From assembly GCF_000194985.1 (NCBI RefSeq), contig NZ_GL878519.1, positions 476,815-511,309 on the forward strand: 34,495 bases of DNA. The letters are read 5' to 3'. Shown piece by piece: positions 9,289 to 34,466 of this stretch (positions within the stretch are counted from its first letter, which is position 1; the number at the start of each line of letters is the position of its first letter). The stretch comes from Dialister micraerophilus DSM 19965. Lineage in GTDB: Bacteria > Bacillota > Negativicutes > Veillonellales > Dialisteraceae. The notes under the pieces were generated by a model. The model was not told the DNA's origin and ran no database searches. It saw nothing but the letters and a program-made list of their open reading frames with translations. Made by a program: the position numbers and the translations under genes.

Positions 9289-9317
9289 ATTATGTCACGT
9301 TTTTTTACAAGTAACAA
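9289..9317 (-). promoter_or_regulatory. Promoter for nitroreductase-dusB
   Basis: Minus strand: -35 TTGTTA (9317-9312), 17-bp spacer, -10 CATAAT (9294-9289), about 37 bp from the start codon. It is divergent from the strong transporter promoter at 9363-9391. Confidence 0.6.
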
Positions 9318-9362
9318 GCAAGCGTTTTACACCTTTGACAACAAACATTTTCATCAATTTTG

Positions 9363-9391
9363 TTGACATTGATTATTTTACATGCTATCAT
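9363..9391 (+). promoter_or_regulatory. Strong sigma-70-type promoter of the cysteine-type transporter operon
   Basis: TTGACA (9363-9368), an exact 17-bp spacer and TATCAT (9386-9391) match the vegetative consensus in 11 of 12 positions. Transcription should begin near 9398, only about 22 nt before the leader ORF start, leaving room just for its ribosome site. Confidence 0.85.
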
Positions 9392-9420
9392 GTTAAAAAT
9401 TTATAAAGGAGGAACACATC

Positions 9421-9534
9421 ATGAGAAACACATGGAATACAATTACAATTTGCTGTTGTTGTACCTGCATGGTTTGTTGCTGCCATGTTTCTTTTGCGTG
9501 TGCTCCTGTCGATCGAATAGGTACAATTTTGTAA
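9421..9534 (+). CDS. Cysteine-rich leader peptide (37 aa), candidate attenuator ORF
   Basis: Short ORF between a consensus promoter and the transporter genes. It has a near-perfect ribosome site, AAAGGAGG at 9405-9412, eight bases before the ATG. The 37 codons include nine Cys: four in a row at codons 11-14 (9451-9462), one at 16, three in a row at 19-21 (9475-9483), and one at 27. It ends at TAA 9532-9534, 27 bp before an intrinsic terminator that precedes the permease gene. Such an arrangement is that of ribosome-mediated attenuation, where stalling at Cys codons under low Cys-tRNA would prevent termination. The downstream binding protein resembles the cysteine receptor CjaA, which fits. 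A functional Cys-rich metal-binding peptide is an alternative I consider less likely. Too short for ordinary gene callers. Confidence 0.85.
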   Translation: MRNTWNTITICCCCTCMVCCCHVSFACAPVDRIGTIL

Positions 9535-9589
9535 CGATATTTTTGCATATTTGTCATCAAAGGCGGGAATACACTTCCCGTCTTTTTTT
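9458..9589 (+). promoter_or_regulatory. Attenuator: alternative RNA pairings plus intrinsic terminator (9562-9589)
   Basis: The terminator stem is GGCGGGAA (9562-9569) with TTCCCGTC (9575-9582), loop TACAC and a T7 tract (9583-9589). It stands 23 bp before the permease start codon, so it must be bypassed for expression. Two competing pairings are visible. GUUGUACC (9458-9465, in the first Cys run) can pair with GGUACAAU (9520-9527). GUUGCUGCC (9476-9484, the second Cys run) can pair, with one mismatch, with GGCGGGAAU (9562-9570), the 5' arm of the terminator. The first would form in untranslated RNA; the second is a candidate, though weak, antiterminator when a ribosome stalls at codons 11-14. 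The terminator is directly seen; the switching is inferred. Confidence 0.75.
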
Positions 9590-9611
9590 GTCGTTTGAAA
9601 AGGAAAATAAA

Positions 9612-10268
9612 ATGGATACTGTTTATATTTTCAAATATCTTCACTTGTTTGTCGATGCAGGTTTGACGACGTTGAGAATTGCTTTTTTCGGAATTGTGCT
9701 TTCTCTTTTATTCGGACTTTTTATAAGTGTAATACGCTACAAAAAAGTTCCGATAATTTCACAAATATGCAAATTTTACATAGAACTTTCGAGAAATACT
9801 CCTCTGCTCGTGCAATTATTTTTTCTCTACTTCGGTCTTCCTAAAGCGGGAATACATATTTCCGGTGAAAATTGCGCACTTTCGGGGCTTGTATTTTTGG
9901 GAGCAAGTTACATGGCGGAAACGTTTCGAAGCGGATTGGAATCTGTTGCAAAATCTCAAATCGAATCTGCGGCGGCATTGGGAATGGGTGAGTATCAAAT
10001 TTTCCGTTTCGTTATTATTCCTCAAGCGGTTTCGGTTTCTATTCCTTCCGTTTGTGCAAACATAATTTTTCTTATAAAAGAAACTTCGGTTTTCAGTGTT
10101 TGTGCAATTCCCGATCTTATGTATGTGGCAAAAGATTTAATAGGTCTTTATTACAAGACCGATGAAACTTTATTCATGCTCGTTATTGCATACTTAATTA
10201 TTTTATTGCCCGTTTCTATAATCGCTTATTTATTGGAAAGGAAGACGCTATGGGTTTATCGGAATTAA
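9612..10268 (+). CDS. Polar amino-acid (cysteine-type) ABC transporter permease 1
   Basis: Inner-membrane subunit of the HisMQ/GlnP family, 218 residues from ATG 9612 (MDTVYIFKYLHLF), preceded by AGGAAAATAAA. The open frame extends further upstream, but that part crosses the terminator and the leader ORF in another frame and is rejected. It shows the family's N-terminal GLTTLRIAFFGIVLSLLFGL, the ELSRNTPLLVQLFFLYFGLP motif, and the EAA loop ESAAALGMGEYQIFRFVIIPQA. It probably forms a heterodimer with the next permease, which it overlaps by 19 bp. Confidence 0.92.
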   Translation: MDTVYIFKYLHLFVDAGLTTLRIAFFGIVLSLLFGLFISVIRYKKVPIISQICKFYIELSRNTPLLVQLFFLYFGLPKAGIHISGENCALSGLVFLGASYMAETFRSGLESVAKSQIESAAALGMGEYQIFRFVIIPQAVSVSIPSVCANIIFLIKETSVFSVCAIPDLMYVAKDLIGLYYKTDETLFMLVIAYLIILLPVSIIAYLLERKTLWVYRN

Positions 10269-10939
10269 ATTTTCTGTTTGAAGGTGTGAACGGTTTGAGA
10301 TTGCTTCAAGGGTTGGGAACTACTTTGACGATTTCATTGCTTTCGGTAGCAGGCTCTTGTATATTGGGACTTTTTGTCGGATTGATAATGACTTTGAAAA
10401 ATCCGTTTATACAATTGCTTTCGAAATTCTATCTCGAGTTCATGCGTATAATGCCGCAGCTTGTACTTCTTTTTATCGCATATTTCGGAATTGCAAAAGC
10501 ATTTAATATACACATTTCGGGCTTCATCGCTTCATTGACAGTTTTCATTTTATGGGGCACGGCGGAGATGGGCGACCTTGTACGTTCGGCAGTAGAGTCG
10601 ATACCTGAAAATCAATATGAAAGTGCGGCAGCTCTCGGTTTTTCAAAATTTCAAATGTATCGTTTCATAATTATTCCTCAAGCTGTCGGATTTCTTCTTC
10701 CTCCCGCAATAAACTTGTTTACACGAATTATAAAGACAACTTCGCTTGTAGTTATGATCGGAGTTGTGGAAGTTCTCAAAACGGGACAGCAGCTTATAGA
10801 AGCAAATCGCTACACTGCACCCGATGCGGCACTTCCCATGTACGGTTTGATATTTTTCCTTTATTTCTTCTCTTGTTGGCCTCTTTCAAAATTATCTTCT
10901 TATTTGGAAAAGAAACGGAGCGGCAGATATGCAAAATAA
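10250..10939 (+). CDS. Polar amino-acid (cysteine-type) ABC transporter permease 2
   Basis: Second HisMQ/GlnP-family permease, 229 residues. The start ATG at 10250 lies inside the end of permease 1, with GGAAAGGA ahead of it. Motifs include LLQGLGTTLTISLLSVAGSC, EFMRIMPQLVLLFIAYFG (in place of the more usual RGTPL), and the EAA loop YESAAALGFSKFQMYRFIII. RYTAPDAALPMYGLIFFLYF near the C-terminus is typical of the family. The last 11 bases overlap the ATPase gene, so the four transporter genes are tightly coupled. Confidence 0.92.
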   Translation: MGLSELNFLFEGVNGLRLLQGLGTTLTISLLSVAGSCILGLFVGLIMTLKNPFIQLLSKFYLEFMRIMPQLVLLFIAYFGIAKAFNIHISGFIASLTVFILWGTAEMGDLVRSAVESIPENQYESAAALGFSKFQMYRFIIIPQAVGFLLPPAINLFTRIIKTTSLVVMIGVVEVLKTGQQLIEANRYTAPDAALPMYGLIFFLYFFSCWPLSKLSSYLEKKRSGRYAK

Positions 10940-11666
10940 AATATTGCTTTCAATAAAAAATTTAAAAAAGAATTTCGGCGAAAATACCGTTTTAAAAAAT
11001 ATTTCTCTTGATGTAAAAGAAGGTGAAGTAATCGCTGTAATAGGTCCTTCCGGTTGCGGAAAATCCACTTTCCTGCGTTGTATAAACGGACTTGAATCTA
11101 TAGATGACGGTTCTATATACCTTTATGACGAATGTATTTCAGACGGTTCTATTTCAGGTAAATATGTACGTCAACGTATCGGAATGATTTTCCAAAGTTA
11201 TGACTTGTTCAATCATATGAAAGTTTTACAAAATATTATGCTTGCTCCGGTGGAAGTGCAAAAAAGAGATAAAAAAGAAGTAAAACGTCAAGCTCTTGAA
11301 TTGTTGGAGCGTGTACACCTTTCGGATAAAGCCGATGCATGGCCTTCTCAATTGTCCGGTGGACAAAAGCAGCGAATTGCAATTATTCGTGCATTGATTA
11401 TGAATCCCAAGTTGGTACTTATGGATGAAATTACCGCTTCTCTCGATCCGGAAACCGTAAGTGAAGTTTTACAGTTTGTAACTGAACTTGCAAAAAGCGG
11501 AATGACAATGATTATAGTTACTCACGAATTGTCTTTTGCAAAAGCGGTTGCAGACCGAATACTGTTTTTCGATAAAGGTCTGATTTCCGAGGAAGGTACA
11601 CCGGATAAAATTTTCAATCACCCCGATAAGGAACGTACAAAACAATTTCTCACATCCGGTTTTTGA
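10929..11666 (+). CDS. Polar amino-acid (cysteine-type) ABC transporter ATP-binding protein
   Basis: Cytoplasmic ATPase of the GlnQ/HisP family, 245 residues. Walker A is GPSGCGKST, the Q-loop lies in GMIFQSYDLFNHM, the signature is LSGGQKQR, Walker B LVLMDEITASLDPE, and the switch His in IVTHELSFA. The residue after the catalytic Glu is Ile where most relatives have Pro (DEIT for DEPT). The gene overlaps the preceding permease by 11 bp and is followed after 23 bp by the binding protein. Confidence 0.94.
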   Translation: MQNKILLSIKNLKKNFGENTVLKNISLDVKEGEVIAVIGPSGCGKSTFLRCINGLESIDDGSIYLYDECISDGSISGKYVRQRIGMIFQSYDLFNHMKVLQNIMLAPVEVQKRDKKEVKRQALELLERVHLSDKADAWPSQLSGGQKQRIAIIRALIMNPKLVLMDEITASLDPETVSEVLQFVTELAKSGMTMIIVTHELSFAKAVADRILFFDKGLISEEGTPDKIFNHPDKERTKQFLTSGF

Positions 11667-11689
11667 ATTTATACAAAGAGGAGTTCACT

Positions 11690-12535
11690 ATGAAAAAATT
11701 TACAACGTTTTTAATGGCAATCGTTTCAATTTTGGCATTGACTTTTGCCTCAGGCTGCGCATCAAATTCGGAAACGGAATCGAAACCTTATCGCTCCATC
11801 GCAGAAATTAAAAAGAGCGGAGAATTGATAATAGGTGTTTTCAGCGACAAAGCTCCGTTCGGATATATAGATAAAAACGGTAATTACCGAGGATATGATA
11901 TTTATTTTGCAGAACGTCTTGCAAAAGATTTGGGAGTAAAGCCCAAGTACATTTCTCTTGAACCGGCAAACCGTACCGAATATGCAAAAACAGGAAAGGT
12001 AGATATAATTCTTGCAAATTTCACTGTGACAAAGGAGCGTGCCGAGCAAGTGGACTTCGCACTTCCGTACATGAAAGTCGCAATAGGTGTGGTTTCACCA
12101 AAAAATCAAAACATCACATCTGTCGAGCAGTTGAAAGGCAAAAAATTGATTGTCGCAAAAGGAACGACTGCGGAAACTTATTTCACTGAAAATCATCCTG
12201 AAATAGAATTACTCAAATTCGATCAATATGCCGAAACTTACAGTGCTTTGCTCGATAAAAGGGGCGATGCATTTTCTACCGACAACACCGAAGTGCTTGC
12301 ATGGGCCATGAAAAACCCCGAATACAAAGTGGGTATTACACATTTGGGAAAAGATGAAGTAATTGCACCTGCGGTGCAGAAAGGCAATAAAGAGCTTCTC
12401 GATTATATAAATAATGAAATAAAAGAATCGGCAAAGGAAAATTTCTTCCACAAAGATTATGAGGAAACACTTGCTCCGGTTTACGGAAGCTCCGTAAATC
12501 CCGACGATCTTGTAATCGAAGGCGGAAAATTGTAA
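11690..12535 (+). CDS. Solute-binding lipoprotein, CjaA-like (probable cysteine receptor)
   Basis: Extracytoplasmic family-3 binding protein, 281 residues from ATG 11690, preceded by AGAGGAG. The signal peptide ends in the lipobox FASGC (lipidated Cys23). Segments such as IGVFSDKAPFGYID, VDIILANFTVTKERAEQVDF, LPYMKVAIGV, KGTTAETYF, LLDKRGDAFSTDNT and the C-terminal DDLVIEGGKL closely resemble, from memory, the Campylobacter jejuni cysteine-binding protein CjaA, whose structure contains cysteine. The cysteine specificity is therefore inferred from resemblance and is supported independently by the Cys-codon leader. Cystine or another polar amino acid remains possible. It is the last gene before a strong terminator. 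Confidence 0.88.
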   Translation: MKKFTTFLMAIVSILALTFASGCASNSETESKPYRSIAEIKKSGELIIGVFSDKAPFGYIDKNGNYRGYDIYFAERLAKDLGVKPKYISLEPANRTEYAKTGKVDIILANFTVTKERAEQVDFALPYMKVAIGVVSPKNQNITSVEQLKGKKLIVAKGTTAETYFTENHPEIELLKFDQYAETYSALLDKRGDAFSTDNTEVLAWAMKNPEYKVGITHLGKDEVIAPAVQKGNKELLDYINNEIKESAKENFFHKDYEETLAPVYGSSVNPDDLVIEGGKL

Positions 12536-32014: not shown

Positions 32015-33066
32015 TTATCCCAATTTTTCCAAATCGTAAATTGCTTTAAGTACCATTTCTTCCGTTACCGGATATGCCGTTTTTCTTAAATCCGGTTTTG
32101 TAAGTGCATTCTTTACAAGTTCGGTCGGATCGGTTAATCCGATGTGTGCAAGTTTGTGCGGAAGTTTTGTGTTTTTGCAGAACTGATACATTTTGTCACG
32201 TTCTTCAAATTGTTTATCCATTGTCAAAAGTACGAGTACGCCCCATGCAATTACCGCTCCGTGCAAGTGCTTTCCTTCGTGAGGTGTGCCGGTATGACTG
32301 TTGTAAAGTGCGTGCGCAAGGCTCGAGTTGTAATCTTCGAGTACCAAGTTTGAAATAATTCCCGTTGAGCAAATAATATTTTGAACTACATAGTCTACAT
32401 CTTTGTTCACTTCATTTTTTCAACGGCTTTCAATGCTTCTTCTCCGTAGCGGAGTAATCATTCAGAACAGTTTCTTGCAAGTTGTACTCCCAATCCTCTG
32501 CTGTAACTCAATTCGTCTCCTCTTGATGAGAATTACACTTCATACTATTTTGAGAGTGCGTCACCGATTCCTGCCCAGAAGTATTCGGTCGGTGCTTCAG
32601 CAATTACTCTTGTATTGATAAATGTGTGGTATGAAGGACGGTGTGCATACCATACGCTTCTGAATGCGTGTGTCGGATAGTAGTACGCACCTACCGCAGT
32701 AACGGGTGCACAGTTTGATGCAAGTGTAGGAAATACAAATAACGGTTTATTCATTTCACCTGCTGTTTTTTTGACGGTATCAATTGCACGACCGCCTCCG
32801 ACTGCAAAAATCATGTCGGATTTTTGTACGCTTTCGTGTTGTTTCAAAGCGTCCGCATTTTCAAATGTTGCATCATCTCCGTACCACAGAGAGTCCGTAA
32901 TTTCAAGTTTGCCTTTACAGGATTTTCTGAGTTCTTCTTCGGCTGCCGCTCTGGCTTTATTTCCTCCGATAATAACTGCAGTTTTCCCGAATTCTCCGCA
33001 GATTTTCGGTACTGCGTCATAAGCGTCTTCTCCTAATGTGTAACTTGGTAAAAATTGATGTTCCAT
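32015..33066 (-). pseudogene. Disrupted GldA-like iron/zinc alcohol dehydrogenase
   Basis: Relatives are metal-dependent NAD(P) dehydrogenases of the GldA/HcxA (YbdH) group acting on polyols or 2-oxo/2-hydroxy acids. ATG 33064-33066 (MEHQFLPSYTLGED) follows AGGAG. The N-terminal part has the nucleotide loop FAVGGGRAIDTVK and FPTLASNCAPVTAVG. The C-terminal part has metal ligands in LAHALYN and HLHGAVIAWG. Between them, clear homologous text is broken by in-frame TAG (32545-32547), TAA (32533-32535) and TGA (32458-32460) and by a frameshift at an A-run at 32415-32420. All three stop types occur, which argues against recoding. The flanking sequence reads smoothly through each break, so decay is recent. 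No full-length product is expected. Confidence 0.88.
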
Positions 33067-33112
33067 TTTAATACACTCCTTTTGTGTTAAATATTTTAAT
33101 GAATTTAATCTT

Positions 33113-34132
33113 TTAAGCACTTACTGCGACATTTTCATTTTTTGATGTGTCATCATTATTTTCTTTGTCGAAGTACGGATTCAGGTAAGTTGTACATACC
33201 CATGCAAGTACTGCGCCGGATATGGTGAACCATGCCGAGAATAATGCTCCCGGTATTACAGCTGCCGGTATTACAGCTGCCGGTAAACTTGCAAAATGAA
33301 CTTTTGAAAGTCCTGTCGCAAGTCCGGAATTCTGCATTCCTACTTCTATTGCAAGTGTTACGGATTTTTTCCACGAAAGTCCGTTGAGTTTTGCCGCTGC
33401 AAATCCGAGTAAGTAACCGAACAAGTTGAAGAGTACAACTACAAGCATTATCATTCCGAAATGGTTGAGTATCGCATCATGCGATGCACCGATTACTCCG
33501 GCAAGTATCAGGCATATTGTAAGTGATGATACGCCCGGTGTGTAAGATGCAACCGTTTCTCCGACTTTCGAAAGAAATGTTTTAAGCATAAGTCCCAATG
33601 CTACCGGAAGTATTACTATTTCCAGTATCGAGAGAAACATTCCGACCGGATCGAATTTTATGTTCGCACCTATGAGTCAAAATGTAAGCAGCGGTGTCAT
33701 TATCGGAGAAAACAATGTGGATACGGATGTCATCGTTACCGAATATACCAAATCTCCTTTACTCATGTATGTGATGACATTTGATGTCGTACCTCCGGGG
33801 CAAGTGCCCAAGAGTACAAGTCCTGCGGTAAGTCCGTCATCAAGTTGGAACAGTTTTGCAAGTGCAAATGCCAAGAACGGTATTATCGTATACTGTGCCA
33901 ACGCTCCCAAGAATACATCTTTCGGCCTTTTGAAAATTCCCAAAAAATCTTTGTAATCGGATGTAGTTCCCATTCCGAACATAATCAGGCCGAGCATCAG
34001 GCTCATAACGAAAACGCCTTTTACATTTCCCATTACCCACAGCCATTTGTCGGATGTGAAAAGTCCCAATAGCAGAAATACCACTGCCATAACGCCGAAA
34101 TACTTCGATAAAAGTTCAAAAAATTTCTTCAT
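33113..34132 (-). pseudogene. BASS-family (bile acid:Na+ symporter-like) transporter with in-frame UGA
   Basis: Family members are ten-helix Na+-coupled carriers for organic anions, including 2-oxo acids such as ketopantoate. The first half (ATG at 34130-34132, ribosome site GGAGG) has LMLGLIMFGMGTTSDYKDF and LVLLGTCPGGTTSNVITYMSKGD, the Na+-site crossover. Translation then meets TGA at 33677-33679 in the TPLLT-F-stop-LIGANIKF segment, where relatives continue. The second half contains VEVGMQNSGLATGL-like IEVGMQNSGLATGLS. It also contains a 5-residue tandem duplication (AAVIP twice) from a 15-bp repeat. The stop lies in a conserved helix, so a functional protein is unlikely unless read-through occurs. 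It is the first gene after the T-box and is followed by the decayed dehydrogenase. Confidence 0.85.
33251..33285. repeat. 15-bp tandem duplication within the transporter gene
   Basis: CGGTATTACAGCTGC occurs at 33251-33265 and again at 33266-33280, followed by a further CGGTA. It duplicates five codons (AAVIP) in the NPAAIPGALFSAW-type helix of the BASS protein. It looks like replication slippage in a gene no longer under constraint. Confidence 0.85.
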
Positions 34133-34192: not shown

Positions 34193-34466
34193 AAAAAAAC
34201 GCCCCTCATATTGAGGGACGGCTATGCCGCGTTACCACCCAGGTTCCTGAAAATAATTCAGACGCTCTACAACGTACTAACATACGCGTTTCCTATAACG
34301 TGGAAATTACGTCAGCCCTTAATTAAATAATTCAGGTCTGCACCTCAGGGAGGATTTTCATCTACCGGTAAACATCGACTTGCACCAAACATCGGCTCTC
34401 TGTTATTTACTTGAGTAAATTACTCATTCCCTTCAAAGGATTTTTCGTATACCTTATTTTGAAGTT
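34193..34466 (-). promoter_or_regulatory. T-box riboswitch (tRNA-sensing leader) with terminator
   Basis: Read on the minus strand, the leader has a Stem I with lower helix AGGGA/TCCCT, a GAGTA specifier-loop element, the AG-bulge region AGAGAGCCGATG and the GGTG-containing apical loop. The T-box sequence TGGGTGGTAACGCGG lies at 34241-34227 and binds the free tRNA acceptor end. The terminator is CGTCCCTC/GAGGGGCG (34220-34200) with T7 (34199-34193). The specifier is ambiguous: the 3' side of the loop reads UGAAAAUCC (34360-34352), allowing AAU (Asn) or AUC (Ile). It controls the BASS transporter and dehydrogenase pseudogenes. All core elements appear intact. Confidence 0.92.

Follow-up and report, generated by a model that had tools for sequence, protein, structure and literature searches.

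The region upstream of a four-gene ABC importer operon (9612-12535; two permeases, an ATPase and a binding protein) in the analyzed window, a 34,495-nt stretch of the Dialister micraerophilus DSM 19965 genome, very probably acts as a ribosome-mediated transcription attenuator, by which a cysteine importer is regulated according to the level of charged Cys-tRNA. The initial annotation had arrived at the same reading, and it is now supported by leaders compared across genomes, by the association of terminators with these leaders and by base pairing that is specific to each leader. The ORF, its Cys codons, the terminator, the association with the importer gene and the leader-specific complementarities can be read from the sequences themselves, and the predicted elements of the locus are compiled in Table 1.

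The promoter, the ribosome site, the 37-codon ORF with nine Cys codons, the intrinsic terminator behind it and the four importer genes were all recovered as the initial annotation had described them. The Shine-Dalgarno sequence AAAGGAGG lies 5′ of the leader ATG at 9421, and from the position of the promoter a 5′ UTR of about 23-30 nt is predicted. The cysteines occupy codons 11-14, 16, 19-21 and 27, the codons following the first run being located at 9466, 9475-9483 and 9499. Between the leader stop codon and the terminator stem 24 nt were counted, or 27 nt if the GC part alone is considered. The pattern GGAG-ATG-TGYTGYTGY has one occurrence genome-wide, and the leader site in the window matches it; applied to the whole class, this degenerate DNA-pattern search was flooded by out-of-frame Leu, Val and Ala codons and was usable only for the single-site count in the own genome. 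The predicted hairpin over the later Cys codons is a possible RNA polymerase pause hairpin. Similar hairpins over Cys codons were found in leaders of the Peptoniphilaceae, and another Dialister locus (L002, 4841-4865) carries a different 7-bp stem over its later Cys codons, whose base pairs deviate from those of the window at several positions.

Table 1 Predicted features of the leader region and the importer operon (window positions).
Feature	Position	Strand	Details
Promoter, sigma-70-type, TTGACA-17-TATCAT	9363..9391	+	11/12 consensus; TG precedes the -10 element
Segment 1, RBS region of the leader ORF, AAGGAGGAACACAUC	9406..9420	+	predicted partner of segment 2 after ribosome passage
Leader ORF, 37 codons, nine Cys codons	9421..9534	+	translation MRNTWNTITICCCCTCMVCCCHVSFACAPVDRIGTIL
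Cys codons 11-14, TGC TGT TGT TGT	9451..9462	+	proposed first stall site
Hairpin spanning later Cys codons, 7-bp	9467..9488	+	predicted fold; possible pause hairpin
Segment 2, 5′ strand of the antiterminator, GUGUGCUCCUGUC	9498..9510	+	alternative partner is segment 1
Hairpin inside the antiterminator helix	9520..9558	+	predicted fold; mostly covered by a ribosome at the stop codon
Segment 3, terminator 5′ arm and loop, GGCGGGAAUACAC	9562..9574	+	partner of segment 2
Intrinsic terminator (segments 3:4), stem 9559-9585 with U-tract	9559..9589	+	-14.9 kcal/mol
Importer permease 1, polar amino acid family	9612..10268	+	
Importer permease 2	10250..10939	+	
Importer ATPase	10929..11666	+	
Importer binding protein	11690..12535	+	closest solved relatives 1xt8, 2yjp

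The binding protein had been likened to CjaA, and its best matches are indeed 1xt8 and 2yjp, which we take to be CjaA and a cysteine receptor, respectively; to 1xt8 it is homologous along its length (311.7 bits, residues 12-281). CjaA binds cysteine (PMC4178425), and we infer from these relatives that cysteine is the substrate of the importer, whose nearest named relative was found in Dialister sp. UBA7295 (71% identity). The host genome (1.28 Mb, 99.6% complete) contains no match to CysK/CysM and just weak, partial matches to CysE, none of them convincing, while both families were detected in all 14 control genomes. Since CysK/CysM are absent and no convincing CysE was found, the host is probably a cysteine auxotroph dependent on imported cysteine, and cysteine uptake is probably vital to it.

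For comparison, 80 orthologous permeases were collected from named genomes plus relatives in the class of the window and in the family of Aedoeadaptatus; a phylum-wide search provided no additional importer orthologue. About 27 Cys-rich leader ORFs were found at orthologous importers of Negativicutes, Lachnospiraceae, Oscillospiraceae, Erysipelotrichaceae and Peptoniphilaceae, and what appears to be the same attenuator design is encountered again in many gut and oral bacteria, built from unrelated sequences. The earlier framing as a control mechanism of Negativicutes was too narrow, as the leader is scattered across several Bacillota classes. Applying a fixed definition (at least four Cys in 12 codons, located within 300 nt 5′ of the gene and provided with a ribosome site), Cys-rich uORFs were counted before 9 of the 80 importer orthologues. 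The corresponding figures are 0.06% for shuffled sequences and 2 of 563 for the upstream regions of other genes at the same loci, and one of these two control hits is in turn an importer operon. This enrichment is far higher for Cys than for every other residue. Across about 108 loci scanned on both strands, all Cys-rich uORFs that do not overlap large ORFs directly precede the importer. At L055 the uORF is located before the gene of the binding protein (66% identical to that of the window), because this gene is the first one of the operon there. Additional CCC-codon candidates in the genomes of three relatives were recognized as long proteins or as antisense to genes and were dropped.

Comparing the orthologous leaders, as the initial annotation had proposed, showed that ahead of this importer the Cys codons are conserved, the remaining residues drift and alternative stems recur. 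In the Peptoniphilaceae a Cys-rich ORF was found at 10 of 11 orthologues, with drifting residues around the cysteines and, judged by eye, TTGACA-like promoters upstream of most of the leaders. The leader of Dialister UBA7295 is homologous to that of the window, and three of the four codons of the first Cys run differ synonymously. Among lineages Cys spacing, length and all other residues vary freely (for example MLCCCCCC... or MINVPINSFIHNTCCCKCCSCQSE), and two Negativicutes relatives (L117 and L120 in genomes G069 and G187) encode ...NCCCCEASCCDAC..CN from a TTG start. This pattern also bears on a Cys-rich arrest peptide, which would respond in the exit tunnel to a signal other than Cys-tRNA (free cysteine, sulfide or the redox state, for example) and stall at the same place. 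Such a peptide would be expected to act from the same position and within the same RNA architecture; arrest peptides, however, usually require conserved residues, whereas here the identity of Cys alone is kept, TGC and TGT are exchanged synonymously and the sequence drifts elsewhere, which leaves this explanation highly improbable. On the permease tree (row L120 was out of frame and disregarded) the leader is scattered, with 17 changes compared to 22 for shuffled labels and at least six of them forced by well-supported branches, which points to frequent gains, losses or transfer; a single origin of the leader is not supported.

The leaders are closely tied to terminators. In 14 of the 18 leaders first checked an intrinsic terminator follows the leader stop codon by 18-68 nt; L020, L053, L055 and L063 have none by the criteria used. 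Across the 80 importer loci a terminator was found at 9 of 14 Cys-leader loci but at only 1 of 66 others (controls 19 of 569; p 8e-8). According to the initial annotation, relatives that keep the transporter while missing the ORF or the terminator would count against its reading. The leader is in fact absent from about 65 of the 80 loci, yet nearly all of these are also without a terminator at this place, so that the two elements occur or are missing jointly. The sole seemingly leaderless locus with a terminator, L072 (4846-4977), carries an ORF of 21 codons that includes a tandem Cys pair, MKMYSAVCCMFEHKTEFLHTY, and by its sequence probably belongs, as a weak member, to this kind of attenuator. 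At 10 of 65 leaderless loci (L005, L006, L010, L012, L021, L025, L032, L033, L038 and L070), compared to 17 of 576 controls, an inverted repeat CCTAn...nTAGG is located next to the promoter, at most 120 nt before the importer; it perhaps represents a repressor site and resembles what we take to be an operator of the CymR kind.

The link between leader and terminator also weighs on an explanation in which the same leader acts by translational coupling or Rho control, as for mycobacterial poly-Cys ORFs, with the hairpin being incidental. Cys-rich uORFs lacking terminators are known from mycobacteria (PMC1262725), and the four leaders without a clear terminator would fit such a mechanism. The strong association of terminators with the leader and the leader-specific pairing of these terminators described below speak against it, and we consider it very unlikely.

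In the window, segment 2 pairs with segment 3 over 12 bp with one mismatch. In all 14 leaders with a terminator, its 5′ arm together with the loop matches a stretch 3′ of the first Cys codons, located in the ORF or just after it (Fisher p 2e-9 against shuffled leaders); such pairings extend over 10 bp in L015, L022 and L024, for instance, and over 11 bp in L117. When the arms were permuted among 13 leaders, none of the 20,000 permutations equalled the pairing of the leaders with their own arms (permutation p 5e-5). Taken alone, the match of the window reaches p 0.02-0.06 against shuffles; the strength of the pairing evidence lies in the set of leaders and not in the window alone. For L072 and L214 a significant antiterminator was not found. 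Covarying stems, which had been suggested as a further check, were seen in part: alternative stems recur, but the covariation within the closest family is thin, with one antiterminator pair changed on both sides (G-C to A-U in 3 of 8 Peptoniphilaceae leaders), and shuffles often reach the same.

The initial annotation had assigned the antiterminator to 9476-9484, pairing with the 5′ arm of the terminator. This pairing is possible (-10.2 kcal/mol, or -12.6 kcal/mol including the flanks), but it is weaker than that of segment 2 with segment 3 (-14.9 to -16.4 kcal/mol), and in the fold predicted for a ribosome at the first Cys codons, 9476-9484 sits in the loop of the 9467-9488 hairpin. Furthermore, the other Dialister leader (L002) employs the position equivalent to segment 2 despite a different terminator (GCGUGUGC-c-UCUG with CGGA-a-GCGCACGC). 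The earlier assignment was consequently replaced by segment 2 with segment 3. We regard 9476-9484 as a distinctly unlikely partner; this estimate refers to one step within the attenuator reading and is not additional to it.

The pairing data bear likewise on the question of whether the ORF is instead the gene of a small Cys-rich protein with a function of its own, a metal or redox peptide for instance, which is co-transcribed with the importer while the terminator sets the stoichiometry of the operon. Nine cysteines in 37 residues and the LPAQM sequence common to the Peptoniphilaceae leaders would suit such a protein. LPAQM, however, coincides with the segment 2 nucleotides that pair with the terminator, the spacing of the cysteines, the length and the other residues differ freely between lineages, and a leader-specific pairing to the terminator arm would be needless for a protein, making this reading barely plausible.

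According to the attenuator model, for which we infer ribosome stalling, its kinetics and the response to cysteine, a ribosome translating the leader would halt at the Cys runs, 5′ of segment 2, when Cys-tRNA is scarce. Segment 2 could then capture segment 3 on its exit from RNA polymerase, before the 3′ arm is synthesized, the terminator would come too late and the importer would be transcribed. With abundant Cys-tRNA the ribosome would reach the stop codon at 9532 and occupy about 9515-9545, thereby parting segments 2 and 3; segment 2, now behind the ribosome, could pair with the RBS of its own leader, and the terminator would form. For the folding calculations the ribosome was represented by a simple footprint (A-site -17 to +12) masking the Cys codons, and the RNA ended before the 3′ arm of the terminator is made. 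Under a stall at the Cys codons the pairing of segments 2 and 3 was predicted for all 14 leaders, with probabilities of 0.5-1.0 at most stall codons and lower values at a few. In the window, stalling at codons 11, 12 and 19-21 gives a value of 0.91 and stalling at codon 14 one of 0.26; without a ribosome the pairing is still favoured prior to the synthesis of the 3′ arm (0.85 in the model). For the full-length stalled RNA at equilibrium the terminator (-32.9 kcal/mol) is preferred over the fold with segments 2 and 3 forced to pair (-29.1 kcal/mol) by 3.8 kcal/mol. The predicted switch must therefore be kinetic, with the antiterminator acting by forming first, as is usual in such switches.

The most novel part of the attenuator is the predicted mimicry of the RBS. 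With the ribosome modelled at the stop codon, segment 2 pairs with the RBS of its own leader, with a value of 0.74 in the window, in 9 of the 11 leaders in which this could be examined; L002 and L057 are without RBS pairing. The match is again leader-specific, although segment 2 had been selected solely by its pairing with the terminator. As segment 2 pairs with both, the arm of the terminator resembles the RBS of the leader, which is seen in the window for AAGGAGGAACACAUC and AAAGGCGGGAAUACACU. In L002 segment 1 is located immediately before the Cys codons instead, where it would be covered by the stalled ribosome according to the model. At L117 and L120 segment 2 lies immediately 3′ of the stop codon and would therefore be partly covered by a ribosome at the stop. 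That the RBS pairing competes with the antiterminator is the least certain step of the mechanism, and we consider it only slightly more likely than not. We further propose, with about even chances of being right or wrong, a recurrent Bacillota design in which the terminator arm mimics the leader RBS: one segment would either shut the RBS or hold the terminator open, one unhindered round of translation would close the leader and end transcription, and the arrangement would have been gained or lost repeatedly before cysteine importers, with unrelated sequences each time. In the trp attenuator segment 1 is the codon run, whereas here it is usually the RBS of the leader itself.

In analogy to the classical attenuators (trp, his, ilv and leu, including Listeria ilv-leu, which was tested by mutation, PMC5864092), the locus combines a presumably translated leader ORF, which has an RBS and consecutive codons for the amino acid under control, with an intrinsic terminator between leader and structural genes and a predicted antiterminator, which excludes the terminator, is free during the stall and is energetically weaker than the terminator at full length. 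The controlled genes serve the sensed amino acid as well, judging by the CjaA-like binding protein, with the substrate deduced from relatives. Unlike in the classical cases, the amino acid is cysteine, the target is an importer and the leaders are unrelated in sequence between lineages. The cysteine importer leader is accordingly most likely a variant of classical attenuation, and Cys attenuators are already known in Actinobacteria and predicted for cysS of Rhodobacterales. Canestrari 2020 is said to describe mycobacterial Cys leader ORFs as cysteine-responsive. For Actinobacteria, Cys leader ORFs that lack terminators have been predicted (PMC1262725); they share the short ORF, the runs of Cys codons and the location upstream of sulfur or cysteine genes. 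The mycobacterial ORFs are, however, leaderless, precede cys operons and lack conserved terminator hairpins (PMC1262725), whereas the leader described here has a Shine-Dalgarno sequence and an intrinsic terminator and precedes an importer; the window leader thus does not belong to the mycobacterial leaderless poly-Cys type. The uORFC-8-2 motif upstream of cysS in Rhodobacterales was likewise predicted to be a Cys-codon attenuator and has a terminator-like stem together with a U run (PMC8632094), but by its published description it has two tandem Cys codons, a cysS target, an occurrence in Alphaproteobacteria and a conserved RNA motif, in contrast to the fast-drifting leaders found here.

In Clostridium perfringens, Cys T-boxes control cyst(e)ine transporters (PMC2940859). 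They share the Cys-tRNA charging signal, the transporter targets and premature termination with the proposed attenuator, but T-box RNA binds the tRNA directly and without translation. No T-box was detected at 9300-9700 (Rfam, gathering and relaxed threshold) or in 28 other importer loci scanned, and the leader contains neither an Rfam family above gathering score nor a riboswitch at either threshold. Histidine leader peptides of bacilli, noted as replacing T-boxes (PMC2965389), are another case of Bacillota leader-peptide attenuation doing the work of a T-box, but concern histidine and hisS/hisZ instead of cysteine and transport. In a literature library with few subscription papers, no publication was found that describes attenuation by a Cys leader for this importer or for these lineages. 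If the attenuator reading is true, cysteine import in Bacillota joins the short list of processes under leader-peptide attenuation, and a leader peptide would do here what a Cys T-box does for the cyst(e)ine transporters of clostridia like C. perfringens. The set of leaders moreover represents a natural experiment, in which the same gene and the same sensor codon are combined with unrelated RNA sequences, and the logic of attenuation, including the RBS mimic, is therefore testable by swapping of parts.

Elsewhere in the window, its sole T-box leader was identified at 34211-34445 on the minus strand (137.5 bits), upstream of a transporter-like gene, whose two ORFs (33677-34132 and 33113-33640) are not in the same frame. 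T-box control is therefore present in the host for another target. An alcohol/glycerol dehydrogenase-like gene at 32015-33120, also on the minus strand, is apparently split in the ORF list into 32545-33120 and 32015-32410 and is possibly frameshifted or decaying.
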